Of a stretch of 29,420 nt of DNA, positions 8,554-26,640 are shown in pieces (within the stretch, counting starts at the first letter, position 1; each line of letters starts with the position of its first letter). The stretch covers positions 459 to 29,878 of IMG/VR virus record IMGVR_UViG_3300001589_000005; one strand, given 5' to 3'. The notes under the pieces were generated by a model, which saw only the letters and a program-made list of their open reading frames with translations, was not told the DNA's origin and did not search any database. This DNA comes from a virus. Position numbers and translations under genes: made by a program.

Positions 8554-9045
8554 ATGATAGATCCAATTACGGCGGTCGCAGCCGCTACGGCTGCGTTCAA
8601 TACAATTAAACAAGGTTTCCAACTTGGTAAAGATATCGAGTCTATGTATGGTGACATGGGTAGGTGGATGGGTGCCGTAAGCGATATTGATCAGGCGGAT
8701 AAGTTAAATAAGAAACCACCGTTGTTTAAAAAAATATTTGATGGTTCTAGTATAGAACAAGAAGCAATGGATATTTTTGCTGCTCAGAAAAAAGCAGCTG
8801 CCATGGAACAAGAACTAAAGACTTTTGTTAACTTTACACACGGGCCTGGTTCATGGGATGAGATACTTAGACTACAAGGTAAGATTCGTAAAGATAGACA
8901 AAAATTAATCTATGAACAACAAATGAGACAAAGAGAAATCCTAAATGCAATTGGATTAATAATCTTGGTGGGTGGAATTGGATTTGCTGTAGTTATGGGT
9001 GCTTCTATTATTGTAGACATGCACGGCCATCCAAGTGGTTGGTAA
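8554..9045 (+). CDS. Conserved T4-like tail-region protein with C-terminal membrane helix
   Basis: I choose ATG 8554 (MIDPITAVAAATAAFNTIKQ) over the in-frame ATG at 8539, because GAGGGG at 8541-8546 is placed for 8554 and the MIDP start is typical of this family in marine T4-like phages. The 163 residues comprise an Ala-rich amphipathic N-terminus, DIESMYGDMGRWMGAVSDI, a KKPPLFKKIFDGSSIEQEAM segment, a long charged coiled-coil-like helix (about 90-130) and one hydrophobic helix near the end (AIGLIILVGGIGFAVVMGAS). The family occurs next to tail genes and is often annotated as hypothetical or structural. The membrane anchor suggests action at the host envelope or transient membrane association during assembly. 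Confidence 0.7.
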   Translation: MIDPITAVAAATAAFNTIKQGFQLGKDIESMYGDMGRWMGAVSDIDQADKLNKKPPLFKKIFDGSSIEQEAMDIFAAQKKAAAMEQELKTFVNFTHGPGSWDEILRLQGKIRKDRQKLIYEQQMRQREILNAIGLIILVGGIGFAVVMGASIIVDMHGHPSGW

Positions 9046-9263
9046 TGGAACTTGTTTTTGCTTTAGTAACTTATCTTGGAATGAATAAGATTGATGAAAC
9101 TTACTTTCGCAATATAGATGATTGTATATACTTCCAAGAAAGATTAAACAAACAACCCAGAGTTCCTAAAAGAGACCCAGAAGGAAATGATGTGCCTGGC
9201 GCTAAATTTGTTGCTGTATGTCAACCCTCAAAAGTAAACCTAAATAAAACGAAGGTATATTAA
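9045..9263 (+). CDS. Small protein with hydrophobic N-terminus, 72 aa
   Basis: Start ATG 9045 in a TAATG overlap with the preceding gene. The first residues are hydrophobic (MELVFALVTYLGMN), followed by YFRNIDDCIYFQERLNK, a KRDPEGNDVPG turn and FVAVCQP. Two Cys (in DDC and AVC) could form a disulfide if exported. The pattern is familiar from small hypothetical proteins beside tail genes in marine T4-like phages. It may be a short signal-anchored or secreted protein; function unknown. Confidence 0.6.
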   Translation: MELVFALVTYLGMNKIDETYFRNIDDCIYFQERLNKQPRVPKRDPEGNDVPGAKFVAVCQPSKVNLNKTKVY

Positions 9264-9593
9264 ATGTTTAAATGGATTGTATTAGTCATGCTACTAATCC
9301 CACTTAATCTATATGGTGGAGCAAAAACTGTCGGCGCAAAGAAAGACTATACACGACAGCAAAAAATTCAAAGAGGTGATATAATAGAAAAAAAGTACAC
9401 CACTTGTAGATTAAAGAAGATTGTCCAATCACGATCTGGTGAACAGGCTTGTATATATCAAGGTGGTAATAAAACTTATGAATTAATGTTTGATAATAAC
9501 TGTCCAAAACAATTTAAATGTATTTACAATCCTAACAGTAAAGAACCAAATATAGACAATGTGATGGATAGTTTAAATTCAATAGGTAAGTAA
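9264..9593 (+). CDS. Predicted secreted cysteine-containing protein, 109 aa
   Basis: Clear signal peptide: MFKWIVLVMLLIPLNLYGGA, with probable cleavage after the small residues near 18-20. The mature part is basic and contains four Cys (TTCRLKK, GEQACIYQGG, NNCPKQFKCIYNP), suggesting two disulfides in the periplasm. There is no lipobox Cys. The ATG directly follows the previous stop. With its two upstream neighbours it forms a trio with envelope-targeting signals under one late promoter. It resembles short beta-rich proteins of marine phages without assigned role. Confidence 0.6.
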   Translation: MFKWIVLVMLLIPLNLYGGAKTVGAKKDYTRQQKIQRGDIIEKKYTTCRLKKIVQSRSGEQACIYQGGNKTYELMFDNNCPKQFKCIYNPNSKEPNIDNVMDSLNSIGK

Positions 9594-9594
9594 T

Positions 9595-9876
9595 GTGATA
9601 TATGAACATGAAGATTTGCAAATAGATTCAACTGTATCATCTAAAACAAGATTATATAAAGATGATAAATTAGTTTTTATTGGTGATGGTTATAAAGCAA
9701 TCACTATGATGATTAATAATAGCAAAAATCCAGAACCAGTAAAACAAAAGTTTCATGCCCAATTAACTATGAGAGAAAAACCAAAATTTTCTAAAGGTGA
9801 TGATATAGAAACATTGAGAAAGCAAGCACTAGATGACCATGCTCAATCCTTAGTGAAGAAGAAGAGAAGGCGATAA
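9595..9876 (+). CDS. Hypothetical basic protein, 93 aa (GTG start)
   Basis: Starts with GTG at 9595; the overlapping ATG at 9593 is closed at once by TGA, so the rare start is required. AGG at 9584-9586 serves as Shine-Dalgarno. The N-terminal half looks beta (STVSSKTRLYKDDKLVFIGD), then a short helix (YKAITMMINNSK), and the C-terminus is strongly basic (SLVKKKRRR). No family recognised. Position just upstream of gp5 suggests a tail-assembly or virion accessory, by context only. Confidence 0.55.
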   Translation: MIYEHEDLQIDSTVSSKTRLYKDDKLVFIGDGYKAITMMINNSKNPEPVKQKFHAQLTMREKPKFSKGDDIETLRKQALDDHAQSLVKKKRRR

Positions 9877-9882
9877 ACTCTT

Positions 9883-9890
9883 TATAAATA
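9883..9890 (+). promoter_or_regulatory. T4-type late promoter TATAAATA (before gp5)
   Basis: TATAAATA at 9883-9890, 27 bases upstream of the gp5 ATG at 9910, with GGAG at 9901-9904 in between. The fixed short leader recurs at three other late genes. Confidence 0.75.
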
Positions 9891-9909
9891 ATATAGAATA
9901 GGAGTCAGC

Positions 9910-11250
9910 ATGTCAAATAATTTTATGGGCCTAGATGGTTTCGTCTGGTTTACTGGTGTCGTTGAAGATAGAAACGATCCTGCTTTACTTGGACGAGTCC
10001 GTGTAAGATGTTTAGGTTTTCACACAGAAGATAAAGTGAAAATACCTACATCATCACTACCTTGGGCTCACATAATGTTACCGATAACAACACCGTCTAT
10101 GAATGGTAAAGGTCAAAGCATACCATTTATGGTTGAGGGTACATGGGTTATTGGTTTCTTTAGAGATGCTGAATTACAACAACAACCAGTAATTATTGGA
10201 ACACTGCCAGGCTATCCACAAACAGTATCGGATAAGACAAAAGGATTTAATGATCCAAATGGTGTGTATCCTCTATCAACCCACTTAAATGAAAGTGATG
10301 TAAACAGATTAGCAAAAGGTGGAGCGGATGATAAACCACATGAAATCATTGAACTCAAAGAATCTAAAAGAGATAAACAAGTTGCCGTTGCCTCAGGCGA
10401 ACCTTGGGATGAACCAGCTGGGTCACATTCATCATCCAAGTATCCTTACAACCATGTATTTGAATCAGAGGTTGGACATATCAAAGAATACGATGACACA
10501 CCGAGCAATGAAAGAATACACGAATATCATAAAACTGGAACATTCTACGAAATGCGACCAGACGGTTCAAAAATCACAAGGGTGGTTGGTAACAATTATG
10601 AAGTGGTTCACGGATCGGATTACGTCCATGTTAAAGGATCAGCAAACCTAACAGTTGATGACACATTAAACATAAAAGCAAAAACAATAAACATGGTTGC
10701 TGATACTATGAATAAAACAATAGGAACGCTTACAGAAACAATAACAACACATAATGAAACAACTGGAACGCTGACAGAAACATATACAACTAAAACGGAA
10801 ACTGCGACAACTGGTAATACGACTTATACATCAGGCGATGTAGTTGCAAGTAATATATCTCTAGTAGGACACCAACATGTAGATAATGCTGGACTTGCTG
10901 CTGGAGTTACCACTGTGCCTATTGGTGGAAGTGGTTCAGTAACATCTGCTCAAGGAGATACCGTGACAGCAATTTCATCTGGTATAACTGCTACAGAACC
11001 AACATCTCTAGATCTAACTACAGTCTCAAATGTAACATTACCGACTGCTACATCATCATATCCAGATACACTGGTAAAAACAGATTCTACTGGTACAGTT
11101 AATAGTACAATATTGGCTGACAATGCTGTAACACAAGATAAACTTGCAGACGATGCTGTAGGTTCTGCTGAAATGAAAACTCTATCGACACTACTCATCA
11201 AGAATAGTGGTGGTACTACATTAAAAACAGTTCACGGTGCTGGAGAATAG
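9910..11250 (+). CDS. gp5: gp5-like baseplate hub/spike protein, lysozyme-less
   Basis: 446 residues. Residues about 8-105 are the gp5 OB-fold (GFVWFTGVVEDRNDP, LGRVRVRCLGFHTEDK, LPWAHIMLP, VEGTWVIGFFRD, PVIIGTLPG). The segment 175-245 (YPYNHVFESEVGHIKEYDDT, GTFYEMRPDGSK) is the conserved spike core shared with VgrG/gpV proteins. Residues 245-315 are Thr-rich beta-helix-like repeats (GTLTETITTHNETTGTLTET). A GHQH motif (His321, His323) follows; in P2-type spikes an HxH binds iron at the tip. About 120 further residues end in a module nearly identical to the C-terminus of the fibre-like protein at 26874. T4 gp5 is 575 residues with an internal lysozyme; that domain is absent here. The trimer should form the membrane-piercing centre of the baseplate. 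Confidence 0.88.
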   Translation: MSNNFMGLDGFVWFTGVVEDRNDPALLGRVRVRCLGFHTEDKVKIPTSSLPWAHIMLPITTPSMNGKGQSIPFMVEGTWVIGFFRDAELQQQPVIIGTLPGYPQTVSDKTKGFNDPNGVYPLSTHLNESDVNRLAKGGADDKPHEIIELKESKRDKQVAVASGEPWDEPAGSHSSSKYPYNHVFESEVGHIKEYDDTPSNERIHEYHKTGTFYEMRPDGSKITRVVGNNYEVVHGSDYVHVKGSANLTVDDTLNIKAKTINMVADTMNKTIGTLTETITTHNETTGTLTETYTTKTETATTGNTTYTSGDVVASNISLVGHQHVDNAGLAAGVTTVPIGGSGSVTSAQGDTVTAISSGITATEPTSLDLTTVSNVTLPTATSSYPDTLVKTDSTGTVNSTILADNAVTQDKLADDAVGSAEMKTLSTLLIKNSGGTTLKTVHGAGE

Positions 11251-11258
11251 TATAAATA
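11251..11258 (+). promoter_or_regulatory. T4-type late promoter TATAAATA (before gp25)
   Basis: TATAAATA begins directly after the gp5 stop codon, 26 bases upstream of the gp25 ATG, with AAAGGA between. Confidence 0.75.
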
Positions 11259-11276
11259 CTAATAAAGGAATTACAA

Positions 11277-11705
11277 ATGTCGCAATATGATGCTCAGTTA
11301 AATAATAACACATCTAGAAATAATAGACAATACTCTGATTTAGATTTATTCTTTAGCAGAAAAACATCTAATAGCGATATAAATACACTTACAGACGTTC
11401 AAGCGGTAAAGAGAAGTGTTCGTAATTTAGTTCAACTAGATTACTTTGAAAAACCTTTTCATCCAGAGATTGCATCTGGCATTAGGGGAATGTTATTTGA
11501 ATTGATGACTCCCTTTACTGCTCAAGTAATTGCTAGACAGATTGAGGATGTAATTAATAATTTTGAACCTAGGGCCAAACTTGTTGGTGTAACTGCGATA
11601 CCAGATTTGGATCGTAATGCTTATGAAGTTAAGGTAGAATTTTATGTTGTTAACACACCGACAGAGTTAGTAGACTTAACGGTATTCTTAGAAAGATTGA
11701 GATAA
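11277..11705 (+). CDS. gp25: gp25-like baseplate wedge subunit
   Basis: 142 residues, close to T4 gp25 (132). Typical GPW/gp25 features: DLDLFFSRKTSNSDINTLTD near the N-terminus, AVKRSVRNLVQLDYFEKPF, HPEIASGIRGMLFELMTPFT (a central helix), IARQIEDVINNFEPRAKLVG and a final strand pair (YEVKVEFYVVNTP, LVDLTVFLERLR). The protein is a sheath-polymerisation-like wedge component that contacts gp6 and gp53 in T4. AAAGGA before ATG 11277 sets the start; gp6 begins one base after its stop. Confidence 0.93.
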   Translation: MSQYDAQLNNNTSRNNRQYSDLDLFFSRKTSNSDINTLTDVQAVKRSVRNLVQLDYFEKPFHPEIASGIRGMLFELMTPFTAQVIARQIEDVINNFEPRAKLVGVTAIPDLDRNAYEVKVEFYVVNTPTELVDLTVFLERLR

Positions 11706-11706
11706 G

Positions 11707-13647
11707 ATGGCAGATACAAATAATCAGAAAGTACGAGTAACGGAATTAGACTTTGATGAAATTAAAGCAAACCTAAAATCTTTTCTAAAAAACCAAACAG
11801 AATTTAGAGATTATGATTTTGAAGGTAGTGGTATGAGTGTTCTATTAGATACACTAGCATACAATACTCACTATCTAGGTTATAATGCAAACATGTTAGC
11901 AAATGAAATGTTTTTAGATAGTGCGGCTTTAAGAAGTTCTGTAGTATCACATGCAAAGACTTTAGGATACGAAACATCTTCATGTCGTGCTCCGAAAGCA
12001 ACTATAGGTATTGCATTAACAACAACTAACTCAACAGCCACTATGCCTGCTGGTACTAAGTTTACAAGTACAGTGGATGGAGTATCATATCAATTCGTAA
12101 CAACCTCGACTGTCCAATCTACAAGTTCTGGTAATACTGTGAACTTTGATAATACAGAAATTTTTGAAGGAACATATGTTACCACAAAATATACAGTGGA
12201 TAGCACTGATACGGAACAAAGATTTATTATCACTGATAACAGAGCCGATACTACAACTTTAAATGTAACAGTTCAAAATTCATCAACCGATACATTTACT
12301 ACAACCTTTACAAAAGCAACTGATATATCACAGCTGTCTATTAATAGTAATGTGTACTTTTTACAAGAAATAGAACAAGGTAGATATGAAGTTTATTTTG
12401 GTGATGGTGTTGTAAGTAAATCATTAACAGATGGGAACATCGTAATACTAAATTATGTTGTTACAAATAAAACTGCAGCCAATGGTGCAAATGCTTTTTC
12501 ATCACCAAGTGCTATTGGTGGTATTAGTGACATTGGTATTACACTCGTTGCTTCCGCTGCTGGTGGTGCAGAACCAGAAAGTATAAATTCAATAAAATTA
12601 AATGCCCCACTTGACTATGCGGCCCAAGGTAGATGTGTTACTAGAAATGACTACCAAGTATTTACTAAGAAGTTATTTGCAAATGCACAAGCCGTTTCTG
12701 TGTGGGGGGGAGAAGATGGAAGTTTTGATTCATCTTTAGGTGTTACTGCAACACCACAATATGGAAAAGTTTATATTTCAATTAAATCAAATACTGGACA
12801 GAACTTAACATCAGCACAAAAATCATCACTAGTTAAATCTTTTAGTCCATTTACCGTTGCATCAATAACACCAGTGATTGTGAATCCAGAAACAACATTC
12901 TTAATTCTACAAGTTAATTTTATGTTTGATTCTACAAAAACTGTTTTGGTTGGGCCAGACTTAGAAGCGTCTGTTATAACTGCAATTACAAATTACAATG
13001 ATACATCTTTAAAAAATTTCAATAGTCCATTTAGACACTCTGTTCTTACTGGATTAGTAGATAGTGTTGATGCTGCTATTTTAAATAACACTACAATTGT
13101 TACCATGGCAAAATTCTTTACACCGATTATATCAACAAATGTCTCCTACACAATTAGTTTTAACAATCCACTATATAATCCTCATTCTGGCCATAACGAG
13201 CTTGGTGGTGGTATTATTGCATCTACTGGATTTAAAATTGATGGTAGAACAGAAGAAATGTTTTTTGATGATGATGGAAAAGGAAACCTAAGAATGTATT
13301 ATCTACAAGGTTCTGCGAGAACTTATTATGCCACGCAAGCAGGAACAGTAAATTATTCTACTGGTGTGGTATCTACAAATGCATATAAATTTTCAAGTGT
13401 ATCAAATGTTGATGGACTTACTTCTACACAAATTAGAATGACAGCAACACCAAATTCAAATGATGTTGTACCAGTTAGAAATCAACTACTAGAAATAGAT
13501 TTAGTTAATTCAAGTATATTAAGTAATGTAGATGCTACTGCCACAACTGGTGTTGGTTATACGGTTGCCTCAACTGGTGGAGATGCACAAACCACAACTA
13601 CGACAGTTCAAACTAATCCATCTAGTGGTTCAACAAGTGCATATTAG
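11707..13647 (+). CDS. gp6: gp6-like baseplate wedge protein (gpJ family)
   Basis: 646 residues (T4 gp6 is 660). The N-terminal 100 residues are highly characteristic: VTELDFDEIKANLKSFLKNQ, DYDFEGSGMSVLLDTLAYNT, NANMLANEMFLDSAALRSSV and KTLGYETSSCRAPKA. The middle has EQGRYEVYFGDGVVSKSLTD and the core LDYAAQGRCVTRNDYQVFTK common to gp6/gpJ baseplate proteins. The C-terminal third is a Thr/Ser/Asn-rich beta region ending in TTTTTVQTNPSSGSTSAY. It forms dimers that join neighbouring wedges in the T4 baseplate. A run of seven G at 12704-12710 within the gene is in frame. Confidence 0.93.
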   Translation: MADTNNQKVRVTELDFDEIKANLKSFLKNQTEFRDYDFEGSGMSVLLDTLAYNTHYLGYNANMLANEMFLDSAALRSSVVSHAKTLGYETSSCRAPKATIGIALTTTNSTATMPAGTKFTSTVDGVSYQFVTTSTVQSTSSGNTVNFDNTEIFEGTYVTTKYTVDSTDTEQRFIITDNRADTTTLNVTVQNSSTDTFTTTFTKATDISQLSINSNVYFLQEIEQGRYEVYFGDGVVSKSLTDGNIVILNYVVTNKTAANGANAFSSPSAIGGISDIGITLVASAAGGAEPESINSIKLNAPLDYAAQGRCVTRNDYQVFTKKLFANAQAVSVWGGEDGSFDSSLGVTATPQYGKVYISIKSNTGQNLTSAQKSSLVKSFSPFTVASITPVIVNPETTFLILQVNFMFDSTKTVLVGPDLEASVITAITNYNDTSLKNFNSPFRHSVLTGLVDSVDAAILNNTTIVTMAKFFTPIISTNVSYTISFNNPLYNPHSGHNELGGGIIASTGFKIDGRTEEMFFDDDGKGNLRMYYLQGSARTYYATQAGTVNYSTGVVSTNAYKFSSVSNVDGLTSTQIRMTATPNSNDVVPVRNQLLEIDLVNSSILSNVDATATTGVGYTVASTGGDAQTTTTTVQTNPSSGSTSAY

Positions 13648-13657
13648 GGAGTAATCT

Positions 13658-16600
13658 ATGTCTGAAAAATCTTCCAAGTTTCTAGGCAAGATATCTCCAT
13701 TAGTAGAAGGACAGTTTCCAGACTTTGTTAAAGATGAAAACAAACTCTTTGTAAAATTTGTTCAAGACTATTATAAGTTTCTTGAAGCTGGTAAGATGGA
13801 ACTTACTGCTGCTGTTGATTATATAAAATATGAAACAGAAACAATATCCTATATTCTTAATGATGAAGGTGATCGTATCGTTGCTGAACAAGGTGCTGGT
13901 ACGGTTGGAAACTTTACTAATGGTGAGACTATTATAGGGTCTTCATCAAATGCTATTGCTGAAGTTATAGTAGAAGATGTCCGTAACGGAACAATCTACA
14001 TTTCATCTCATCAAAAATTTGAAACTGGTGAAACAATAACTGGACAAACCTCTGGTGCAACTGGTGTATTAAAAAGATATCGTGCAAACCCAGTTCAAAA
14101 TATTCAACAACTTTTAGACTACGCTGACGTAGACAATACAATCTTTGACTTTTTAAATAAATTTAGAGATTCGTTTATGGAAGCAATTCCTAATACTCTT
14201 GCAACTGGAACTGCTAAAAGAAATCTAATAAAATCTATCAGAGATTTATATTCTGCAAAAGGAACATCCGAAGGTCACAAACTCTTTATGAGATTGTTAC
14301 TTGGTGAAAGTGCATCTATCTTTTATCCGACACAATATATGTTGAGGGTGTCAAATGGAGATTGGCGTCAAAAGACTACAATGAGAGTTGAGACTATAGG
14401 TTCTTCTGCTGATGAAATTGTTAACCAAGTTATAACTGGTTCAACATCTTTTGCAACTGCGATTGTTGTAGACACTATTACGTTTCAACAAGGTTCTGTA
14501 TCTGTTACGGAACTAGAGATTGACTCTGTAGTTGGTACATTTCAAACCGATGAATTGATTACTGCAATATCAACACTTACAGACGTTCCTGCTAATTTTC
14601 GTATAAAAGCAATTGTTTCTTCAGCAGACTTAGGCACTTCTGGTGCTTTATATGTAGACAATGAAATAATTGATGCAGAGGCTTTGGGTAATGATTTTGC
14701 TGATGTTAGAGTTGATGGTATTAAGTCTGGTGGAGTAACATCAATTGAAATAGATGCTACTGGTGCTGATTATCAAGTGGGAGATAAAGTAACCTTTACT
14801 GCAAACGCTGTAGACACAGACGTATCTGACGCTTCTGGCTTTGTAACTGTAACTGGTGGTGGTATTGCAAATGAAGATAGTTCAGGCGATATTATAATCT
14901 TAGAAGATGACACCTCTGTTAGTACGGAAAATTTTGATATCCTACTAGAGAGTAGATTAGAGGATAGATTTATCGGAGATGGTACGACAACTGCATTTAC
15001 ATTATCCACTGTTCCTTCTACGGATACTCTTACAGTACTTGTTGATAATGTAGTTACAACTGCTTATACACAATCTGGTTCAACTATAACATTTACAACA
15101 GCGCCTAAAAATCTCTCAACCATTTTTATTAAGGGTAATCCACAAGATTATCTACTATTAGATAGGACAGATTCTAGTGGCACTGATACTGGATTTAGAA
15201 TACAAACAAATCAACAGATAGAAGTCGTTGATACCTTTGGAACAGATAATGATCAAATAGTTCTTGAAGATGGTTCTATGGGCGCAGAGTTTGGACAAAT
15301 TAAAAAAATATTTATAGAAAACAAAGGTGATGGTTATACAAGATTGCCTACTGTTTCTGTATCATCTACCTTTGGTACTGGTGCTGATCTTACTTCTCTA
15401 TCCACAGAGATTGGTAAAATTCAAGCAATAAAAATTAGTGACTCTGGATTCAATTACACAGTTTCAAATGCTCCAGTTATTGAACCAAGAGCACACTTTG
15501 TTTTAAAAGATGTATCTGGAACATTTGCCTTAGGTAATACTCTAACTACAAACGGACACACTGGAACAGTTCAATCGTTTGATACTGGTACTAAACTATT
15601 AACTACAACTTTTGAAAATGAGGAAAGGATCATTCACGAACAAAAAGGTTCTACTTTCCAAGATAGTATTGAGTTAGAAGGAAACACTGGTGATAATTTA
15701 TCATCTAGATTATTCTTAGAAGATGAACAAGACTTTGATGGTGGGGATAATATTGTATTAGATGGAACTAGTATAAAAGCACCAATCAATCAGACATTTG
15801 TTTTAAAAGTTAAAAAATATTCAGAATTAAACGAGGATGGTGTATCTGTCAATCGGTTTATGATAAATGAATCTAAACGACCAGAATTAGCATTGTATGA
15901 GGGTAACACTTATTATTTTGATTTATCTGACCCATCGTTGTATAGTGATAACACCTCTGTTAATGCTCACCAATTAAGATTTTCAACTACACCAGATGGA
16001 ACACATGCTTCTGGAACTGCATTTACAGATGGGGTAACTGAATCAGTTATAACACTTATACCAATTGGAACTGCTGGTTCGTTTATTCAAATAGTTGTTC
16101 CAACGAATGCTCCAAACCTTTATTACTATTGTACAAATCATAGTGGAATGGGTAATACTATTTTAACACCACAACTACAATCAGTCGTATTGGATGAGGG
16201 TGGAAATATATTAACAGACGGATTAAGTAAACATGAATTTAATATACGTTTGGAAGATGCAATTAACTATACTGGTTTTGGTATTATAGAATTTGAAGAA
16301 GATGCTGGTTTTATTCAAGGACGTTTAGATTTAGAAGATAAGAGTAAAATACTTCTAGAAAGTTCTAGTGAATTAAGTGGTGGTGGTATTGAACTTGAAG
16401 ATGCTGTAGGAAAAGTTAAAGCTGGATTTAATTATAATGTGGGGGGTGTTCAACTAGAAGAATCTATTAGTAGTTTTGTCCAAGGAATTGGTGAAAAAAT
16501 TGTTATGGATAGATATAGAGAAATCAATCCAGGCTCAGTATTCATAGTACAAGAAAATGGTGATCCATTACTTGGTGAAGATTTTGGTTTCAACCTAACA

Positions 16601-18712
16601 TTAGAAGATAATGATCAATTTTTATTAGACGATGAAACTGCTGACTTTATTGTAATGGATGGAACAAATAGTTCATCTCTTAATGTTGGACAAAATTTGA
16701 TACTAGAACAACCAATTGATTTTTCAAATAAAGATGTCACTATCACGGATTCTAGTGGTGCAACTGGAACAATTATTTTTGCTGATGTTGCCACTGGTAC
16801 ATTGAGTGTTGATACAACATCAACTGGTGTAGGGAATTATGTAACAATTGATAACTTGATTGGTGAGGATTTGATTCGTATTCAAGACTCATTCTATTAT
16901 CAAGATTTTTCATATGAGGTTTCCGTTGGACAATCAACTGCAACTTATATTAATCAACTTAAAAGAGCAGTCCATCCTGCTGGTTTTGCTCCATTTGGTA
17001 AAGTTAGTATTGCATCATTTGTTTCTGCAACTGTGGGAACAACTGCGGCTGGTGTTGCTGGATACCTTGGTGATACTCAAACATTCACACCAGAACTTGC
17101 TTCTGTTCTTGAAACAATATTTGATCAAACAATTAAGAGAAGATTAAAAGCTGGAAGTATGGTTATTGGTGCAGAGGATGACCAGATATTATTAGAGAAT
17201 GGTGTGAAGGTTGATGAGGTACTTGCTCTTGAAGGTACAGACACAAATGTAGTAAGTGGTATGCCCTCTGACATTTCTATATTACTAGAAGATAGTTTAC
17301 AGCCAAGTAACTATACTTATGCTGTTTCTCATTTAGTTCAAGAAGATGATTATCAAATACTTCACGAAACTGGTAGACATACAGATGAGTTTGATAATAT
17401 CATAACAGAAGATAGTGCTCAAATACTCATGGAATTTGGAAGTCTTACTGGTGGTACTGCATTACTATATGAACCAAATCAATTTACTGCAAATGAAACT
17501 GGTGGCGGTAGAGTTATGTCCGAAAGTTCTTCTGCAAGTGGCAGTGATAATGAAACTATATTAACAAAAGAAATGAGAATAACACGATCAACTAAACCAA
17601 TAAATCATGCTGCTAGAAACTTATTAACATATCTATATGATCATCCTTTTGCTGTGGAACAAGCATACGGTGGAATACAAATGGAAAACAATTCCATTTT
17701 AGGTATGGAAGATGGAACAGATACAGACGGTGACGGTGATGCAGTAATAGATAATATACTTTTAGAAACTGGTGGACTTATAGTTGTAAATGATACAGCA
17801 GTTCGTCATGATGTAATTAGATTAGATGGTGAAGAACCTTTACCTTCTGTTGCTTTCTTAGTAACTGAGGCTGGTGAAAATATCGTATTTGAACAAGATA
17901 CTATTAATATAGGGTCTGGTAGAACATTACTTGAATCATCTATCTTTACTTTTATTGCAGATCAAGTTAGAAATAGAAATGAAAAATTACTATTGTCTGA
18001 ACCTACAAACGATGATACACTAACTCTTTCAGAAATAGGTGATATACAGATTACAGAAATTGCAAGAAAGGGAAAAATATTACAAAATGGATTTGGCATT
18101 ACTGGACAAAGTATTTCAATAGAAGATGTTGGTATTGCACTAGAAGAAGATGGTTTTATCTTGATGGATGGAACTGAAATAAGTGGTGTTGGTGATACTG
18201 CTTTTGCAGTAAATGAAAACTCATCAATACTGTTAGAAAATATAACTGGTAAACACGAAAGAATAATACAAGAAACTGCTGGGGCAATAGTAGAAGAAGA
18301 TACATCTTCATTGTCAACTATAGATTTAATTCAATTAGAAGATTCTTTAAATGATGGTATTGGTGTTCCCCCTGCTATATTACTAGAAAATGAATATCTA
18401 AGATTGCGTGAAGATATTATTGTTCAAGAAGATGGAACAACTGCTGACGGTGGTAATATAGTTCTTGATGCAACAAGTACTGCTGCTGACGGCAATCCAG
18501 TAGATGAAAATGGAAAACTTGTACAAGAACAAGATACTGCTGATATAGGTTCTGATAGAATAAATCATATCGTATTAGAAACATCAGACTATATCGCCAA
18601 TGCTGGAGTTAAACCAATTGAAAATTATACCATGTCTGGGAGTATAAATACTAGTATAAGGAACATTCCAATCGTACAGCCTGCAATTATTACTTTAAAG
18701 AAGGTTTCATAA
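13658..18712 (+). CDS. Giant baseplate/virion protein in gp7 position, cupredoxin-like and acidic repeats
   Basis: 1684 residues; GGGAG at 13647-13651 before the ATG. Order: conserved N-terminus (PLVEGQFPDFVKDENKLFVK, FVQDYYKFLEAG, 1-45); two modules of type GETIIGSSSNAIAEV (89) and GETITGQTSGATGVL (124); a conserved core near 145-250 (FRDSFMEAIPNTLATG, IRDLYSAKGTSEGHKLFMRL); beta modules with GDGYTRLPTV; a cupredoxin-like domain at about 714-835 with His771, Cys825, His828 and Met831; then about 850 residues rich in ILLEDG-like repeats, interrupted by YQDFSYEVSVG...HPAGFAPFG near 1080-1110 and a DTDGDGD calcium-type loop near 1352. Synteny puts it where T4 has gp7 (1032 aa), the wedge scaffold. 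Similarity to gp7 itself is not readable, so the gene name is left open. Confidence 0.75.
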   Translation: MSEKSSKFLGKISPLVEGQFPDFVKDENKLFVKFVQDYYKFLEAGKMELTAAVDYIKYETETISYILNDEGDRIVAEQGAGTVGNFTNGETIIGSSSNAIAEVIVEDVRNGTIYISSHQKFETGETITGQTSGATGVLKRYRANPVQNIQQLLDYADVDNTIFDFLNKFRDSFMEAIPNTLATGTAKRNLIKSIRDLYSAKGTSEGHKLFMRLLLGESASIFYPTQYMLRVSNGDWRQKTTMRVETIGSSADEIVNQVITGSTSFATAIVVDTITFQQGSVSVTELEIDSVVGTFQTDELITAISTLTDVPANFRIKAIVSSADLGTSGALYVDNEIIDAEALGNDFADVRVDGIKSGGVTSIEIDATGADYQVGDKVTFTANAVDTDVSDASGFVTVTGGGIANEDSSGDIIILEDDTSVSTENFDILLESRLEDRFIGDGTTTAFTLSTVPSTDTLTVLVDNVVTTAYTQSGSTITFTTAPKNLSTIFIKGNPQDYLLLDRTDSSGTDTGFRIQTNQQIEVVDTFGTDNDQIVLEDGSMGAEFGQIKKIFIENKGDGYTRLPTVSVSSTFGTGADLTSLSTEIGKIQAIKISDSGFNYTVSNAPVIEPRAHFVLKDVSGTFALGNTLTTNGHTGTVQSFDTGTKLLTTTFENEERIIHEQKGSTFQDSIELEGNTGDNLSSRLFLEDEQDFDGGDNIVLDGTSIKAPINQTFVLKVKKYSELNEDGVSVNRFMINESKRPELALYEGNTYYFDLSDPSLYSDNTSVNAHQLRFSTTPDGTHASGTAFTDGVTESVITLIPIGTAGSFIQIVVPTNAPNLYYYCTNHSGMGNTILTPQLQSVVLDEGGNILTDGLSKHEFNIRLEDAINYTGFGIIEFEEDAGFIQGRLDLEDKSKILLESSSELSGGGIELEDAVGKVKAGFNYNVGGVQLEESISSFVQGIGEKIVMDRYREINPGSVFIVQENGDPLLGEDFGFNLTLEDNDQFLLDDETADFIVMDGTNSSSLNVGQNLILEQPIDFSNKDVTITDSSGATGTIIFADVATGTLSVDTTSTGVGNYVTIDNLIGEDLIRIQDSFYYQDFSYEVSVGQSTATYINQLKRAVHPAGFAPFGKVSIASFVSATVGTTAAGVAGYLGDTQTFTPELASVLETIFDQTIKRRLKAGSMVIGAEDDQILLENGVKVDEVLALEGTDTNVVSGMPSDISILLEDSLQPSNYTYAVSHLVQEDDYQILHETGRHTDEFDNIITEDSAQILMEFGSLTGGTALLYEPNQFTANETGGGRVMSESSSASGSDNETILTKEMRITRSTKPINHAARNLLTYLYDHPFAVEQAYGGIQMENNSILGMEDGTDTDGDGDAVIDNILLETGGLIVVNDTAVRHDVIRLDGEEPLPSVAFLVTEAGENIVFEQDTINIGSGRTLLESSIFTFIADQVRNRNEKLLLSEPTNDDTLTLSEIGDIQITEIARKGKILQNGFGITGQSISIEDVGIALEEDGFILMDGTEISGVGDTAFAVNENSSILLENITGKHERIIQETAGAIVEEDTSSLSTIDLIQLEDSLNDGIGVPPAILLENEYLRLREDIIVQEDGTTADGGNIVLDATSTAADGNPVDENGKLVQEQDTADIGSDRINHIVLETSDYIANAGVKPIENYTMSGSINTSIRNIPIVQPAIITLKKVS

Positions 18713-18751: not shown

Positions 18752-20251
18752 ATGTCGGCAATAATCACGGAAAAATTTAGACAGCATAATGCTAATCAGT
18801 TTCACGAATCATTTACTGAAGCAGCTGCATCAACGTATTACCTATTCATAGGTAAAGCAACACCATTCACTTCTGGTACAACTGGTGGAAACGATACTAT
18901 TCCCCCAACACCAGCAGACGATATAAGTTCAGAGTTCTATAGATGGGATTCTATGATTGCAGCTAAACAGATTGGATCAACTGATATATCTTTTGCTTTA
19001 CCAAGAACAAATTGGGTAAACGGAACTGTTTACTCTATGTACAAAGATAATATATCTGCATCAAACTTATCTGCCAATGGTGCAACAAATCTCTTTGACT
19101 CAAACTTTTATTTCATAACCTCTGCATTTAGAGTATACAAAATATTAGATAATAACTCTGGGGCTTCATACTCTGGTTCTGAACCGACATCAGAATCAAC
19201 ATCAACATTTGCCCTAGGTGGTTATGTCCTTAAATATATGTACACCGTTTCTGCATCAGATGCTACTAAGTTTCTTACCACAGACTATATGCCTGTGTCT
19301 ACAAACTCAACTGTGAGTGCAGCTGCAGTAGATGGTAAGATTGAAAGTCTTTCTGTAACTGGTGGTTCTGGTTATACAGACGGAACTTACTACGCTGCTG
19401 TTTATGGAGATGGAACAAGTGCTGGAACAGCTTCTGGTGCGATTGTCTCAATCAAAGTTAGTGGTGGTGCAATCCAAGGATTTGGATTATCCTCTGGAAC
19501 AGATACAATTTTACACGCTGGTGGAAATGGGTATACTTTTGGTTCTGTTAATTTAGGGTCTGCATATATCTTTTCTGACACTGCATTAACATCTTCTTCT
19601 TCATTAGGTAGTGGTTCTGGTGGTGCTGTAAATGTTATCATAAGTCCAAAAAGTGGACACGGTAATGATGCTGTCGCAGAGTTAGGTGGACACTATGTGA
19701 TGACAAATACCACACTAACACAAGCAGAGAATGATGATATTACAACTGCAAACGATTTCAGAGAAGTAGGAATAGTTGTAGATCCAACAACTTTTGGAAC
19801 ATCAACCATTTCTTCAATTGCAACTGGAAGAATGACATATGTTGTAAAAATGTCAACATCGTCTGGAACTTTCGATGTGGATGAAACAATAACACAAGCA
19901 ACTACTGGTGCTGTAGGTAGAGTTGTAGAATGGGATTCTGCTAGAAGTCTACTTTATTATCACCAAGAAAGATTTGGTTCTTATGGAACAAATTCTACAA
20001 CTGGTGCTTATGCTGCTTTTTCTGGAACAACAACTGTAACTGGTGGAACTTCCGGCGCAACTGGAACACCATCAAACACTGCAAGTGAAACTGTTACCTT
20101 GGCTAATTCTAATACCTTAACCTTAACAAGTGGGTATGCAAATCCAGAGTTACAACCAGATAGTGGTAATATTGTATACTTAGAAAATAGAAAACCTATT
20201 CAAAGATCAAGTGACCAAACAGAAGATATAAAAATAATAATTGAATTTTAA
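18752..20251 (+). CDS. gp8: gp8-like baseplate wedge protein with inserted beta modules
   Basis: 499 residues versus 334 in T4. The gp8 signature is clear in the N-terminal 190 residues: FRQHNANQFHESFTEAAAST, YYLFIGKATPF, FYRWDSMIAAKQIGSTDISF, PRTNWVNGTVYSMY, FRVYKILDNNSGASYSGSEP and GGYVLKYMYTVSASDATKFL. From about 195 to 470 a Gly/Ser/Thr-rich region has been added, containing GGSGYTDGTYYAA, GGAIQGFGLSSGTD, DVDETITQATTGAVGRV and GGTSGATGTPS modules that also occur in the neighbouring giant proteins. The end (PDSGNIVYLENRKPIQRSSD, DIKIIIEF) is typical of gp8-like proteins of marine phages. In T4 gp8 dimers bridge gp7, gp6 and gp10 in the wedge. Confidence 0.88.
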   Translation: MSAIITEKFRQHNANQFHESFTEAAASTYYLFIGKATPFTSGTTGGNDTIPPTPADDISSEFYRWDSMIAAKQIGSTDISFALPRTNWVNGTVYSMYKDNISASNLSANGATNLFDSNFYFITSAFRVYKILDNNSGASYSGSEPTSESTSTFALGGYVLKYMYTVSASDATKFLTTDYMPVSTNSTVSAAAVDGKIESLSVTGGSGYTDGTYYAAVYGDGTSAGTASGAIVSIKVSGGAIQGFGLSSGTDTILHAGGNGYTFGSVNLGSAYIFSDTALTSSSSLGSGSGGAVNVIISPKSGHGNDAVAELGGHYVMTNTTLTQAENDDITTANDFREVGIVVDPTTFGTSTISSIATGRMTYVVKMSTSSGTFDVDETITQATTGAVGRVVEWDSARSLLYYHQERFGSYGTNSTTGAYAAFSGTTTVTGGTSGATGTPSNTASETVTLANSNTLTLTSGYANPELQPDSGNIVYLENRKPIQRSSDQTEDIKIIIEF

Positions 20252-20262
20252 AGGATTAGTTA

Positions 20263-23200
20263 ATGGCTCAACTTACCGACCTCAATGTATCACCTTACTA
20301 CGATGACTTTAGTAAGGATAAAGATTTTCATAGAATTTTATTTCGCCCTGGCTTTGCTGTTCAGGCGAGAGAGTTAACTACTCTACAATCTATTTTACAA
20401 AATCAAATCGAACAACATGGTAATCACATGTTTAAAGAAGGAACTGTGGTTATTCCTGGCCAACTTTCTTTGATGATGAATTTTCAAACACTACAGTTAA
20501 ACGGAACATTTGCTAATGAAACCATTAATCCAAGTTCATTCTATAATGCAACTAATAACGTAGTTGTAACTGGACAAACCTCTGGTGTTACTGCTAAAGT
20601 TGTAGGATTTCAAATTGCAACTTCAACAACTCAACCTATGTTATATGTTCAATACGTTAATACTGGAACAGATGGTACAACTCAAAGATTTGCAAATGGA
20701 GAGAACTTAACTGCAAATGCTGGTATTACTCACACCACAACATATGCTGCTAATAATGCTTCTGCAACTGTATACTCACCAATTGATAACACTACTGCTT
20801 CACAAAGTGGAACAGCGGTTGAACTACAAGAAGGTGTCTATTACATTAGAGGACAGTTTGTAAGATGTGCTCCTCAAAGATTAGTATTATCTACGAATAC
20901 AACAACTGTAACTGCAAGAGTAGGTTTTACAATTACAGAAACATTACAAACACCAGAGACAGACACTTCACTTACAGATAATGCAACTGGTTCATCTAAC
21001 TATGCTGCTAAAGGTGCTCATAGATTAAAAATTACTTTAACTCTTGCTACAAAATCAACCACTGCAACTGATGATACTAATTTTGTTGAATTGATGAGAA
21101 TTGATAATGGACAGTTGGTTGGACAAGCTAGAGTTACCGAATATGATGTATTAGGAGATACTCTTGCAAGAAGAACTTTTGATGAAAGTGGTTCATATAC
21201 GGTAAGACCTTTTAACTTTGATATGAGAGAAAGCACTAACATCACTGCAAGAAATACTAATTATCAAGGTGTGTTCCAAGGAAAAACTACTACAGATGAT
21301 GGTGGTACACCAGCAGAAAGTTTACTTGCTCTTTCTTGTTCGCCTGGCAAAGCATATGTCAAGGGTTATGAATTAGAAAAGATATCACCTACCTTTAAGG
21401 ACTTAACTAAAGCAAGAGATTTTAATACTGTTAATACTGGTGTCCTTACACATGAGATTGGAAACTTTTGTCAAATAACAAATTTATTTGGACAACCAGA
21501 TATCACATTTATTTCTGGTGAATCCACTGCATACAAAACAGTAGGATTATTTGATGATAAAATTACAACTAACGGAGCATCTTCTGGTAATCAGATTGGT
21601 GTTGCTCGTGCAAAAGCAATTGAATATCGTACTGGTGTTGTAGGAACTTCTGCCGCTGTTTACGATTTATATTTGTGGGATGTTAGACCTTTCACAAAAC
21701 TTACGTTAAGTGGAACACCTAGTGCAACACTTTTATCAAATCATTCAAGTGGTGGTGTTCAAGTAACTGGTGCTACATCTGCTGCAACTGGATTTATATT
21801 CGCTTCTGGAACTGGGGCAGATAAAGTTGTTCTTACAAATGTTATTGGTACTTTTACAGTTGGTGAAAAAATAAAAGCATCAGATTCTGCTGAGACAGAT
21901 TCAGTCGTGGAAAATTCTGGTAACACAGATTTAACTATTTCAGAAGTTGTTACACATACATTTAGAGATACAAGATCTGTGTTTATGGATGATACTGACT
22001 CTGGGCAAGATTTTACAGCAGATGCTGTTTTGATACCATCAGAAATTTCAACTGGACAAATTGTATTTAATGCTTCGGATGCTAATGGTGCAGACTCTAA
22101 CGACAATATCGTTCTAGAAGAAGATAACTCAACTACAATTGCATTGGAAGTTGAAAAGATTGCAACTCTACAAAATACAGAAAAAAATATTTCAATATTT
22201 AAACTACCAAAGAGAGTTATTAAAACTCTTTTAACCACATCAAATAATGGTGCAACGGATACCTCGTTGACAGTTCGTAGACAGTTTATAGGAACTTGTT
22301 CATCGTCTGGTGCTGTGTCATTTACTGCTGGTTCAAATGAAACCTTTGCTGCTTTTGCCGAAAAAGATTATACACTAACAATATTAAGTGCTGGTGCTGG
22401 AACTGGTGTCCAAGGACAAGTAGTAAGTGTTGATGGTAACATTGCTGGAACTGGAACGGCTTCAATAACAGTTACAGATAATACAGTTTTAGGTAATGGT
22501 GCAAAAGTAAAAATTACTGCAACTATATTTAAATCAAATGTTAATCAAAGAATTAAAACTACCAGTTTAATGAAACAAGTTAAAGTAGCAACTGGTGCTA
22601 CAGATGCATATGGAACAAGGCCTGGGGATAAAGAAATTTCACTAGGACGTGCCGATGCATTTAAGTTAGTTGCTGTGTATGACTCAGAGGCTACTGCTTC
22701 TGCTGCAGCTGCTCCACAAATGACTATTACTGCTACAGTAGGAAACTTTACTAGAGGAGAAATTATTAGAGGTGGAACTAGTGGTGCTGTTGCGAGAAAT
22801 ATATCTACATCTAGTCCTATGCAATATGTATTAACACAAGGTGTAGGTGCTACAGATTTTCAAAGTGGTGAAGTTATCACTGGTGAAAGTTCTGGCGCTA
22901 CTGCAACTGTAGGAACTATAACTGGTGGTTCAAAAATTATCACCAGTAACTATGTTCTTGATACTGGACAAAGAGATAACTTTTATGATATTTCTAGAAT
23001 TGTAAGAAAGGTTGGAGTATCACCACCCAGAGGACAATTACTTATTGTATTTGATTTCTTTGGTCACGGTGCAGGCGAATTTTTTAGTGTAGACTCTTAT
23101 TCAGATGCTTCTGGACAAATGGGTTATGGTAATATTCCATCTTATACTGCAACGAGAGTTGATCCAGACGAACCAGAACCAACTGGTTTATTTCCTTTAA

Positions 23201-26200
23201 CAGATTCAATTGACTTTAGACCTACGGTAGAAAATATCGCTGGTACAAGTGAAACACTTGCAACTGTAGATGAAATTACTGGAAAGTCTTTTGACTTTTT
23301 CCATAGACAGTATGATGGAACTGGTGCATCACCAATTGATACACCAAAACCAGCTAGTAATGTTACTGTAGATTTTGAATATTATCTTGGTAGAATGGCT
23401 TTACTATTCTTAGATGACCAAGGAGAATTTAGAATACAAAATGGTGTTTCTGCTGAAAGACCACAAGAACCAAAACCATTAGAAAATGCTCTAAAACTTG
23501 CGACTATAACTTTGAACCCATATACCTTTACACCAGATGATGCAATAATTATAAGACACAAGACACAAAGATTTACCATGGCTGACATTGGTAGATTAAA
23601 AAAGAGATTAGAAACCGTAGAATATTATACTGCTTTATCTCTGTTAGAAAGAGATGCAGAGTCATTTGAGGTTACAGATAAAAATGGTTTGAATAGATTT
23701 AAGTCTGGATTTGTAGTTGATAACTTTGGTGGACATAGAGTTGGAGATGCAAAACATGGTGATTATAAAATTGCCATGGATCAAATTGAAAATGAAATGA
23801 GACCTAAATGTGTAATGAGAAATGCGAAGTTATCTGAATCAGTCGCTACAGACGCTGAAAGAACTGCTGCTAGTTATAGGAAAACTGGTGACATAATTAC
23901 ACTTCCATACACAGATGCTTCTTTTGCATCACAACCATATGCAACAAGAGTTGAAAATGTTCAACCCCATTTAATATATCAATGGGTAGGACAAATTGCT
24001 CTTACACCTACTGGTGATGAGTGGTTTGAAACAGAACTAGTTCCACCACTAATTGTTAATGTTGAGGGTAACTATGATACAGTTCTTGCTGGTGTAGGAA
24101 ATGCATTGGGAACTATTTGGAACTCATGGGAAACTCAATGGAGTGGTGTTGTTGCTACAAGAACAGATCGTTTTAGAAACAATAACTTTGATGTCACAAG
24201 AACAATTCAAACAACAAGAACAGATTTAAGAAGAACTGGACTAGTTACAGATGTTGTTGAACAGATTGATGAAGAATCACAAGGTACTAAAGTTATATCA
24301 AGAGCCATGATTCCTTGGTTAAGAGCTAACGATATAGAATTTGTAGGTAAAGCATTTAAACCAAAGACTAGATTATATCCTTTCTTTGATGGTGTGGATG
24401 TAAGTAGGTTTATCACACCAAAGAATACCAATTTTACTACAGACACTACACCAGTTGCTGGTTCACCATTATTTACAGATGCTGTTGGTAGTGTAGATGG
24501 AACATTTAACATACCAGAATCAAGATTTGCTGGACAAGGTAGTAATCCAAGATTTAAAACTGGTGAATTAGAATTTAGGTTATCATCGTCAACGGTCAAT
24601 CAAAGACTACCACAGCCTGTAACTGCTGCTCAAACAATTTATAGTGCAAAAGGTATTTTAGAAACAGAACAAGAAACTATTGTTGCAACTAGAAATGCTA
24701 TTGTAGTTCAAACCGATGTTTCACAAACAACAAGTAGAAATAGCACAGCTACTTCTGTTAGTAGACGCCCAGTACCACAACCACCCCAAGAAAGTGGTGA
24801 TGATGGGTTTTCCGGCGAGCCGGGCCCCGATCCACTTGCACAAACTTTTATGGTAAATACAGCTGATACTGTTGATACTGGTGCCTTTATTACTAAAATA
24901 GATTTGTTCTTCCAAAAGAAAGATACAGATTTACCAGTTTGGGTAGAAATTAGAAATGTTGTAAATGGGTATCCAGGCTCAAAGATTTTACCTTTTGGTA
25001 GAAAAGTTTTGAATGCTTCAGAGGTAAATGTTTCTGATAATGCTACAACAGCAACTACATTTACATTTGACTCACCAGTTTATTTAAAACCAAATCTAGA
25101 ATATTGTTTCGTAGTACAAACACATAGTTTAGATTATTTGATGTGGATATCACAATTAGGTGAATTAGATGTTTCTGGTTCTAATAGACTTGTGTCTAAA
25201 CAACCTACTCTTGGTGTATTATTTAAATCACAAAACAATCGTGCTTGGTCTTCAACACCTATGCAAGATGCTAAGTTTACTTTGTATCGTGCAAAGTTTA
25301 GTAATGGACAAACTGGACGAGTAACTCTACATAATACTGGAATACCTAGTAAGAGATTAAAACCAAATCCAATTACACTAACTAATAGTTCTGCCGTTGC
25401 GATTGTAAAACACGAAGATCATGGTATGTATCAGGCTTCTAATAACGTAACTATATCTGGTGTAACTTCTGGGATATCTACAACACTCAATACTGCTTTA
25501 ACAGCTGCAGACACTACAGTAGTTCTTGCTTCCTCAACTAACTTTCCTTCAAGTGGTACAGTGTTCTTGAAAATTGGTGATGAGATTATGAGTGGTTCGA
25601 TATCTGGCGTAAATGTAACTTCTGTAACTAGAGGTGTAGATTCAACTACTGCCGCTGTCCATAATGCTGGTGTTACGATTGAGTTGTACATGATACAATC
25701 TGTTCCATTAACGGAAATTAATAAGACACATACTGCAATTGCAAATATTGGTATGAATAGTTATACCGTTGGTTTATCGACAAATGCTTCCATAAGTGGT
25801 GACTCAACAACTGCTGATGTTGGTGGAGTGTCAATATTCGCAACAGAAAATTATAGATATGAATTAATAAAACCAGTTGTATCAACACTAGAATTACCTA
25901 GAACTACTATTATATCAAAAATACGAACAACTTCTGCAAGAAGTCCAAGTGGTTCTGAAAGTTCTTTTGTAACAACTGCCTCTGGTTCTGAACAACAAGT
26001 TTCTCTAAATGAGAACTTTGAGTTTGATAGTTGCAGAATGGTTGCATCTACGATTAATGAAACTAACGAAATGTCTGCAAAGAAATCAACTTTCTTAACT
26101 TTAGAAATGACTTCTGATACAGATACATTATCACCAGTTGTTGACTTAGATAGGGCTTCATTAGTTTGTGTTGGAAATCAACTTAATAATATTGACAGTT

Positions 26201-26640
26201 CAAGTGATGTTCATCCAACTACTGATTATAATCCAATGACATCACCAGAAGGTGATCAGAACGCCGCAATATATATTACTAAAAAAGTTGCACTTGAAAA
26301 TCCTGCCACTGCGATAAAAGTTATCTTTGCCGCTCACAGACATTCAAGTGCAGAAATAAAAGTATTGTTTAAAGTACTAAGAACAGATGATGCTTCTGAC
26401 TTTGACGAATTAGCATATACTTTCTTTAATACAGACGGTTCACCAGATACGGCTGTAGGTGCTTCATTGGATGACGATGACTTCCAAGAATACAAATTTA
26501 CTGCTGGTGTTACGGATGATGGAATTGGTGAACCATTGTCATCATTTATCCAGTTTGCAATTAAAATAGTTATACAAGGAACAAATGCTGCTGAACCACC
26601 ACGAATTAAAGATCTTAGGGCATTAGCATTGGCGACATAA
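20263..26640 (+). CDS. Giant DUF4815-type virion structural protein
   Basis: 2125 residues, AAAGGA before ATG 20263. The N-terminus is typical of DUF4815 proteins: LNVSPYYDDFSKDKDFHRIL, FRPGFAVQARELTTLQSILQ and NQIEQHGNHMFKEGTVVIPG. Other conserved blocks are GKAYVKGYELEK, RGQLLIVFDFFGHGAGEFFS, YGNIPSYTATRVDPDE and TDSIDFRPTVENI, then PYTFTPDDAIIIRHKTQRFT with MADIGRLKKRLETVEYYTAL (about 1085-1130). At about 1523 a new beta domain starts (DPLAQTFMVNTADTVDTGAF), followed by a TISGVTSG...VLASSTNFPSSG...VTRGVD module near 1730-1810. In the T4 order this is the gp10-like region, so a baseplate-peripheral or fibre-attachment role is likely. A GC-rich patch at 24812-24832 marks the boundary before DPLAQTF. 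Confidence 0.85.
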   Translation: MAQLTDLNVSPYYDDFSKDKDFHRILFRPGFAVQARELTTLQSILQNQIEQHGNHMFKEGTVVIPGQLSLMMNFQTLQLNGTFANETINPSSFYNATNNVVVTGQTSGVTAKVVGFQIATSTTQPMLYVQYVNTGTDGTTQRFANGENLTANAGITHTTTYAANNASATVYSPIDNTTASQSGTAVELQEGVYYIRGQFVRCAPQRLVLSTNTTTVTARVGFTITETLQTPETDTSLTDNATGSSNYAAKGAHRLKITLTLATKSTTATDDTNFVELMRIDNGQLVGQARVTEYDVLGDTLARRTFDESGSYTVRPFNFDMRESTNITARNTNYQGVFQGKTTTDDGGTPAESLLALSCSPGKAYVKGYELEKISPTFKDLTKARDFNTVNTGVLTHEIGNFCQITNLFGQPDITFISGESTAYKTVGLFDDKITTNGASSGNQIGVARAKAIEYRTGVVGTSAAVYDLYLWDVRPFTKLTLSGTPSATLLSNHSSGGVQVTGATSAATGFIFASGTGADKVVLTNVIGTFTVGEKIKASDSAETDSVVENSGNTDLTISEVVTHTFRDTRSVFMDDTDSGQDFTADAVLIPSEISTGQIVFNASDANGADSNDNIVLEEDNSTTIALEVEKIATLQNTEKNISIFKLPKRVIKTLLTTSNNGATDTSLTVRRQFIGTCSSSGAVSFTAGSNETFAAFAEKDYTLTILSAGAGTGVQGQVVSVDGNIAGTGTASITVTDNTVLGNGAKVKITATIFKSNVNQRIKTTSLMKQVKVATGATDAYGTRPGDKEISLGRADAFKLVAVYDSEATASAAAAPQMTITATVGNFTRGEIIRGGTSGAVARNISTSSPMQYVLTQGVGATDFQSGEVITGESSGATATVGTITGGSKIITSNYVLDTGQRDNFYDISRIVRKVGVSPPRGQLLIVFDFFGHGAGEFFSVDSYSDASGQMGYGNIPSYTATRVDPDEPEPTGLFPLTDSIDFRPTVENIAGTSETLATVDEITGKSFDFFHRQYDGTGASPIDTPKPASNVTVDFEYYLGRMALLFLDDQGEFRIQNGVSAERPQEPKPLENALKLATITLNPYTFTPDDAIIIRHKTQRFTMADIGRLKKRLETVEYYTALSLLERDAESFEVTDKNGLNRFKSGFVVDNFGGHRVGDAKHGDYKIAMDQIENEMRPKCVMRNAKLSESVATDAERTAASYRKTGDIITLPYTDASFASQPYATRVENVQPHLIYQWVGQIALTPTGDEWFETELVPPLIVNVEGNYDTVLAGVGNALGTIWNSWETQWSGVVATRTDRFRNNNFDVTRTIQTTRTDLRRTGLVTDVVEQIDEESQGTKVISRAMIPWLRANDIEFVGKAFKPKTRLYPFFDGVDVSRFITPKNTNFTTDTTPVAGSPLFTDAVGSVDGTFNIPESRFAGQGSNPRFKTGELEFRLSSSTVNQRLPQPVTAAQTIYSAKGILETEQETIVATRNAIVVQTDVSQTTSRNSTATSVSRRPVPQPPQESGDDGFSGEPGPDPLAQTFMVNTADTVDTGAFITKIDLFFQKKDTDLPVWVEIRNVVNGYPGSKILPFGRKVLNASEVNVSDNATTATTFTFDSPVYLKPNLEYCFVVQTHSLDYLMWISQLGELDVSGSNRLVSKQPTLGVLFKSQNNRAWSSTPMQDAKFTLYRAKFSNGQTGRVTLHNTGIPSKRLKPNPITLTNSSAVAIVKHEDHGMYQASNNVTISGVTSGISTTLNTALTAADTTVVLASSTNFPSSGTVFLKIGDEIMSGSISGVNVTSVTRGVDSTTAAVHNAGVTIELYMIQSVPLTEINKTHTAIANIGMNSYTVGLSTNASISGDSTTADVGGVSIFATENYRYELIKPVVSTLELPRTTIISKIRTTSARSPSGSESSFVTTASGSEQQVSLNENFEFDSCRMVASTINETNEMSAKKSTFLTLEMTSDTDTLSPVVDLDRASLVCVGNQLNNIDSSSDVHPTTDYNPMTSPEGDQNAAIYITKKVALENPATAIKVIFAAHRHSSAEIKVLFKVLRTDDASDFDELAYTFFNTDGSPDTAVGASLDDDDFQEYKFTAGVTDDGIGEPLSSFIQFAIKIVIQGTNAAEPPRIKDLRALALAT

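Follow-up and report, generated by a model that had tools for sequence, protein, structure and literature searches.

A cupredoxin-like domain with a putative type-1-like copper site inserted in a gp7-like baseplate wedge protein of a marine T4-like phage

A gp7-like baseplate wedge protein and its inserted domain

The window analyzed here, a stretch of 29,420 nucleotides, comes from a virus record of 71,896 bases (IMGVR_UViG_3300001589_000005), and the window features described below lie on the plus strand. A gp6-like baseplate wedge gene (11707–13647; Gp6-like Pfam model, E = 2e-24; phrog_219, 4e-175) is followed by the gene of a 1684-aa protein (13658–18712), which carries the domain under study. 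Downstream are a gp8-like baseplate wedge gene (18752–20251; Phage-Gp8 Pfam model, 2.9e-15; phrog_438, 3e-126) and the gene of a 2125-aa DUF4815 protein (20263–26640; PF16075, 6.6e-62; phrog_358, E = 0). PHROG searches matched the 1684-aa protein to head-closure and baseplate-wedge families, and a Pfam match to PF23786 was sub-threshold. tblastn with the carrier matched Methylophilales phage Melnitz, Pelagibacter phages HTVC008M and Mosig, and other records that include cyanophage entries annotated as gp7. Residues 1–425 share 44% identity with Melnitz gp161, and residues 6–274 share 39% with the HTVC008M homologue (AGE60389). Since these matches coincide with gp6- and gp8-like neighbors, giving both the gp6–gp7–gp8 gene order and similarity to gp7-type proteins, we read the carrier from its sequence as gp7-like, a baseplate wedge protein, and the phage as marine and T4-like (Kyanoviridae-related). 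The original prediction had called it a tail protein, a placement that we keep and narrow to the baseplate wedge.

Outside the domain, the gp7-like protein contains many short repeats of the I-L-L-E or V-L-E-D type, and much of this remainder is absent from the Melnitz homologue. Elsewhere in the record, at ~38.9–41.4 kb and outside the window (L392, ~9021–11560), two adjoining long ORFs resemble, by eye, components of a tripartite tricarboxylate transporter: its periplasmic binding protein, with a signal peptide, and its large membrane protein. In a T4-like phage such a pair would count as auxiliary metabolic genes.

Comparison with Melnitz gp161 also located an insertion. Carrier residues 530–648 and 1014–1163 matched adjoining gp161 stretches (446–569 and 569–717, respectively; blastp), so that residues ~649–1013 (15602–16696), the domain included, constitute an accessory insertion relative to Melnitz. 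The HTVC008M homologue has a shorter, domain-free filling at this place, and neither of these nearest cultured homologues of the carrier possesses the domain.

The cupredoxin-like domain occupies residues ~709–840 (15782–16177). The original prediction had placed it at residues ~714–835 and at nucleotides 15798–16165; this is the right region, but the domain is somewhat longer and the nucleotide start was one base out of frame. The three motifs quoted there were exact in the translated ORF, with LYEGNTYYFDLSDPS starting at residue 746, NAHQLRFS at 769 and YYYCTNHSGMG at 822, as were the positions of the four predicted copper ligands: His771 (15968–15970), Cys825 (16130–16132), His828 (16139–16141) and the axial ligand Met831 (16148–16150). 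Cys825 is the sole cysteine of the entire 1684-aa protein. It is separated from the first His by 53 residues and opens a Cys-x2-His-x2-Met segment. A family profile scored the domain at 132 bits (E = 9e-41), a value obtained with the window's own sequence included in the profile. Because of this score and of hundreds of homologues, the domain stands far above chance level as judged from sequence.

Predicted fold and similarity to cupredoxins

AlphaFold2 predicted the domain with a pLDDT of 88.2 from 39 relatives and of 92.1 (pTM 0.86) from 72 diverse relatives, the latter model being an eight-stranded beta-sandwich. In this second model, in which residue i corresponds to protein residue 711+i, His771 (60) lies two residues ahead of a strand at 62–65, Cys825 (114) is the final residue of the strand at 110–114, and His828 (117) and Met831 (120) fall in the loop that precedes the final strand (122–125). 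Judged by topology, the four residues are predicted to be placed as type-1 copper ligands are, with a core His and a Cys-His-Met segment between the last two strands. The original prediction had named a model with the four residues apart as an outcome that would refute it, and our check of this was by topology. By definition (PMC4059628), a cupredoxin has seven or eight strands arranged in a Greek-key sandwich, and the prediction provides eight, although Foldseek TM-scores were ~0.5 or lower. In two Foldseek runs against the PDB, nearly all top matches were copper cupredoxins, the best being McoA, rusticyanin, CotA, nitrite reductase (NirK) and small laccases (E = 5e-4 to 1e-2, TM 0.37–0.52, rmsd 5–13 Å). 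The best E-value was 5e-4 in the first run and 1e-3 in the second, and because the better model thus gave slightly weaker E-values, we regard the match as consistent though not close and the predicted fold similarity as not decisive alone. In a viral structure library, the best matches were marine phage virion and tail-fibre proteins.

Pfam and NCBIfam scans of the domain yielded no model, cupredoxin or other, above cut-off, which reflects model coverage rather than a structural criterion. Likewise, searching PDB sequences with the domain and two profiles gave no convincing chain, the weak matches being antibody chains aligned through the YYC end. The most recurrent weak Pfam matches among 72 diverse members were PF25489 (At5g54830-like) and PF00127 (plastocyanin/azurin), each in 7 of 72. 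A link to cupredoxins came from profile-profile alignment (hhalign) of the family (83 rows) with 13 PF00127-type proteins taken from bacterial genomes: His771, Cys825 and His828 paired with the ligands of these proteins, the partner of His771 being the first ligand His in plastocyanin/pseudoazurin proteins, and none of 300 column-shuffled profiles reached the real score. The ligand loop of amicyanin is seven residues long (PMC7480511), the length of Cys-x2-His-x2-Met in the domain, and the domain Met is two residues nearer than in pseudoazurin. A search with the Pfam Cupredoxin_1 model through five genomes holding bacterial relatives of the domain found none of these proteins, which are therefore invisible to that model.

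Relatives and joint retention or loss of the ligands

The suggestion that similar endings occur in marine phage and bacterial proteins was borne out by hundreds of homologues across the two groups. We counted at least 98 viral stretches with close-family domains, at least 586 with wide-family domains, and 51 phage records with related domains. Bacterial and archaeal assemblies contributed 90 stretches, a number that may include phage contigs sorted into MAG bins. Cyanophages and pelagiphages carry the module in gp7, in gp10, in tail fibres and in further virion proteins, and by PHROG the phage carriers belong to virion, baseplate wedge and tail fibre families or to families without function. 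All 13 cultured phages examined, including S-TIM5, P-SSM2, Syn9, HTVC028P and S-MbCM6, encode at least one full His-Cys-His-Met copy; S-MbCM6 has full-ligand copies in both gp7 and gp10. Bacterial carriers comprise short SAR86 lipoproteins, verrucomicrobial lipoproteins, a cadherin-repeat lipoprotein, giant surface proteins, and exported proteins that bear tandem domains and a C-terminal anchor; in one of them (L090) the module lies among adhesion-type cadherin/Ig repeats.

Several individual relatives deserve mention. Two loci (L144:4899–5672 and L141:4866–5960) encode exported bacterial proteins in which two or three cupredoxin-like domains, each with all four ligands, are joined to a hydrophobic C-terminal tail that contains Arg and resembles a sorting signal. 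The second of these weakly matched the NCBIfam plastocyanin model (E = 5e-4) and PF25489 (E = 5e-4, 20.4 bits against a gathering cut-off of 27). Very large viral proteins carry the domain at eight further loci (L282, L274, L258, L271, L299, L315, L339 and L354), several in multiple copies. In one gp7-like protein (L066:3750–6870) the domain is partly duplicated, the first copy stopping short of the Cys-His-Met loop and the second lacking the normal first half; this may be an assembly artefact.

Next, we examined how the four ligands are retained across the family. Because some scans had selected on the Cys-His motif, we added a ligand-blind scan with a pattern for GNTYYFD, which is independent of the ligands, and recovered 53 distinct family members. 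All four ligands were present in 36 of these and three or four were lost in 16, the remaining one being truncated; not a single member had lost just one or two. Across 264 aligned members, all four ligands were retained in 67–82% after sequence weighting, and exactly three in 0.8–3.6%, against 36–42% expected under independence. By corrected mutual information over 4560 column pairs, all six ligand pairs were placed in the top 58 at 90% weighting and in the top 16 at 60%, and the His771–His828 pair, with its members 57 residues apart, ranked 2–4. The Cys and Met columns were among the ten best conserved. When a tree was inferred with the ligand columns left out, changes at two or more ligands fell on eight branches, whereas 10,000 null draws averaged 1.5 such branches and never exceeded 7. 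This count rests on a weakly supported topology; a sign test restricted to well-supported branches comprised three pairs and had no power.

Some members retain part of the ligand set. Copies in giant proteins with the arrangement Y-C-Y-Y keep the Cys and have Tyr at the other three ligand places, possibly a tyrosine-cysteine variant of the site. Six verrucomicrobial proteins (L117, L118, L119, L123, L125 and L127) of ~450–490 aa, with a C-terminal domain and in several cases a lipoprotein signal, have Phe-Cys-Gln-Met, which preserves Cys and Met but neither His. Ligand-less homologues also occur within the gp7-like family itself (L052, L057 and L040). Taken together, the alignments indicate that the ligands act as one unit, usually kept and sometimes given up while the fold persists, which is what a metal site selected as a unit predicts. 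The original prediction had named loss of the ligands with retention of the fold as an outcome that would refute it. That outcome does occur among the homologues, but the losses are joint and therefore favor a metal site from which metal-free forms have branched off, rather than counting against one. Because ~30% of the ligand-blind homologues lack the site, the metal appears essential neither to the fold nor to every phage carrier.

The proposed metal site, its alternatives and known systems

The cupredoxin assignment was upheld by the two AlphaFold models, Foldseek, profile-profile alignment and joint ligand evolution, and the domain likely harbors a cupredoxin-type metal site. We infer that the metal is copper. 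Our favored reading, which we consider probable though well short of certain, is that the inserted gp7 domain carries a type-1-like one-copper site (His771, Cys825, His828 and Met831) and serves as a surface module. One copper ion would be bound at these four residues. The host cytoplasm is reducing and copper-poor, so the site would probably be filled outside it, from seawater after lysis or in the periplasm of the next host. Once bound, copper would hold the Cys-His-Met loop in place and stabilize an exposed, exchangeable sandwich module that touches the host from the baseplate or fibres; its main role would be that of a stabilized host-contact surface rather than of electron transfer in a chain. 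We counted in favor of copper that the bacterial relatives of the phage module are exported or lipid-anchored, the usual location of cupredoxins. The contig stretches read contained neither a second copy of the domain nor an obvious copper or copper-partner gene.

Among the alternatives, the one we take most seriously, while still thinking it unlikely, is that this cupredoxin-fold module binds another metal, or copper opportunistically, as a purely structural staple of the loop. Joint ligand loss with the fold kept, which marks the site as one non-essential unit, fits such a staple, as does the occurrence of the bacterial module amid adhesion-type repeats. Yet Met is an unusual ligand for zinc or iron, and two His, a Cys and a Met, in this fold and order, make up the type-1 copper sites in the proteins matched by Foldseek. 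A more active role, to which we give a small chance, would have the tail copper reduced, or recognized by copper-uptake or electron-transfer proteins of the host, thereby aiding adsorption or baseplate triggering. Complete type-1-like sites in host-facing baseplate (gp7 and gp10) and fibre proteins, together with bacterial versions that are lipoproteins and surface proteins, are compatible with this copper counterpart to the ferrojan horse proposal. Against it stand the ligand-less homologues in the same gp7-like family and the contig, which offers no partner gene or interaction evidence; for the iron version, discussed in PMC10892097, iron-uptake mutants left infection unchanged (PMC10892097).

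Two further readings dispense with a metal, and both seem to us improbable. The domain could be a metal-free relic in this phage, its ligands persisting through recent common ancestry, as might be suggested by several lineages in which the domain survives without the site; but the ligands persist in cultured phages only ~30% identical in the domain, and the strong conservation of Cys and Met speaks against decay, which leaves this reading little weight. Least probable of all is an immunoglobulin-like V-set adhesion domain whose YYYC-x2-H-x2-M end resembles the antibody 'YYC' end by chance. The antibody chains in the PDB sequence searches and a V-set (PF07686) note on a domain-bearing cyanophage P-HM2 record point that way; however, the P-HM2 region has no Pfam match, the structure search returned copper proteins and no antibodies among its top 50 matches, and the four residues vary together across distances of up to 60 positions. 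An immunoglobulin domain also needs a second Cys, and we rejected V-set identity because the cysteine pair is missing from a protein with one Cys.

Returning to the type-1-like copper site, a broader extension, which we hold to be doubtful, is that virions of marine T4-like phages and pelagiphages contain copper that acts in host recognition or as a redox or uptake trigger, with blue-copper modules on baseplate and fibres loaded from seawater or the host periplasm. Cupredoxins are known as cellular electron carriers and enzyme domains. In the searchable literature on cupredoxin, plastocyanin-like, copper-binding or type 1 copper proteins with phage tails or virions, we found no prior report; the single match on copper proteins and phage concerned viral NirK, an auxiliary enzyme. 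The family has no Pfam or NCBIfam entry, so that annotation overlooks it, and it sits in an unusual place for a cupredoxin-like domain. It spans common cyanophages and pelagiphages; occupied sites would mean copper in marine virus particles, on which attachment to the host and the stability of the virion could then depend. Cultured phages with full sites and domain-free relatives such as HTVC008M and Melnitz make virion copper directly testable.

Set beside known systems, the carrier resembles T4 gp7-type proteins in its gp6–gp7–gp8 gene order and in its similarity to Melnitz gp161 along residues 1–425, 530–648 and 1014–1163; within this group Melnitz gp161 and the HTVC008M homologue lack the domain, whereas gp7 of S-MbCM6 has a four-ligand copy. 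The domain shares with type-1 cupredoxins (PF00127; amicyanin; rusticyanin) the predicted eight-stranded sandwich, the His ... Cys-x2-His-x2-Met placement, a Tyr-rich strand ahead of the Cys, and exported or lipid-anchored bacterial relatives. Unlike them, it has no Pro or Gly between Cys and His, its first His is not followed by Asn, and 53 residues separate that His from the Cys; it also falls below every curated cut-off, resides inside large virion proteins and belongs to a wider family with many site-less members. The At5g54830-like domain (PF25489), named after a plant protein, matches the Cys-His-Met end in 7 of 72 members (best E = 9.6e-5), but the match is partial and below cut-off, and the window domain itself has none. 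Finally, metals are known from phage tails, with iron in tail spikes and the tip of the T4 long fibre and zinc in short fibres. Those are metal-stabilized proteins of the tail tip, as the present one may be, but their sites are His-rich and sit on the trimer axis, whereas the site described here is a predicted copper site in a separate domain.
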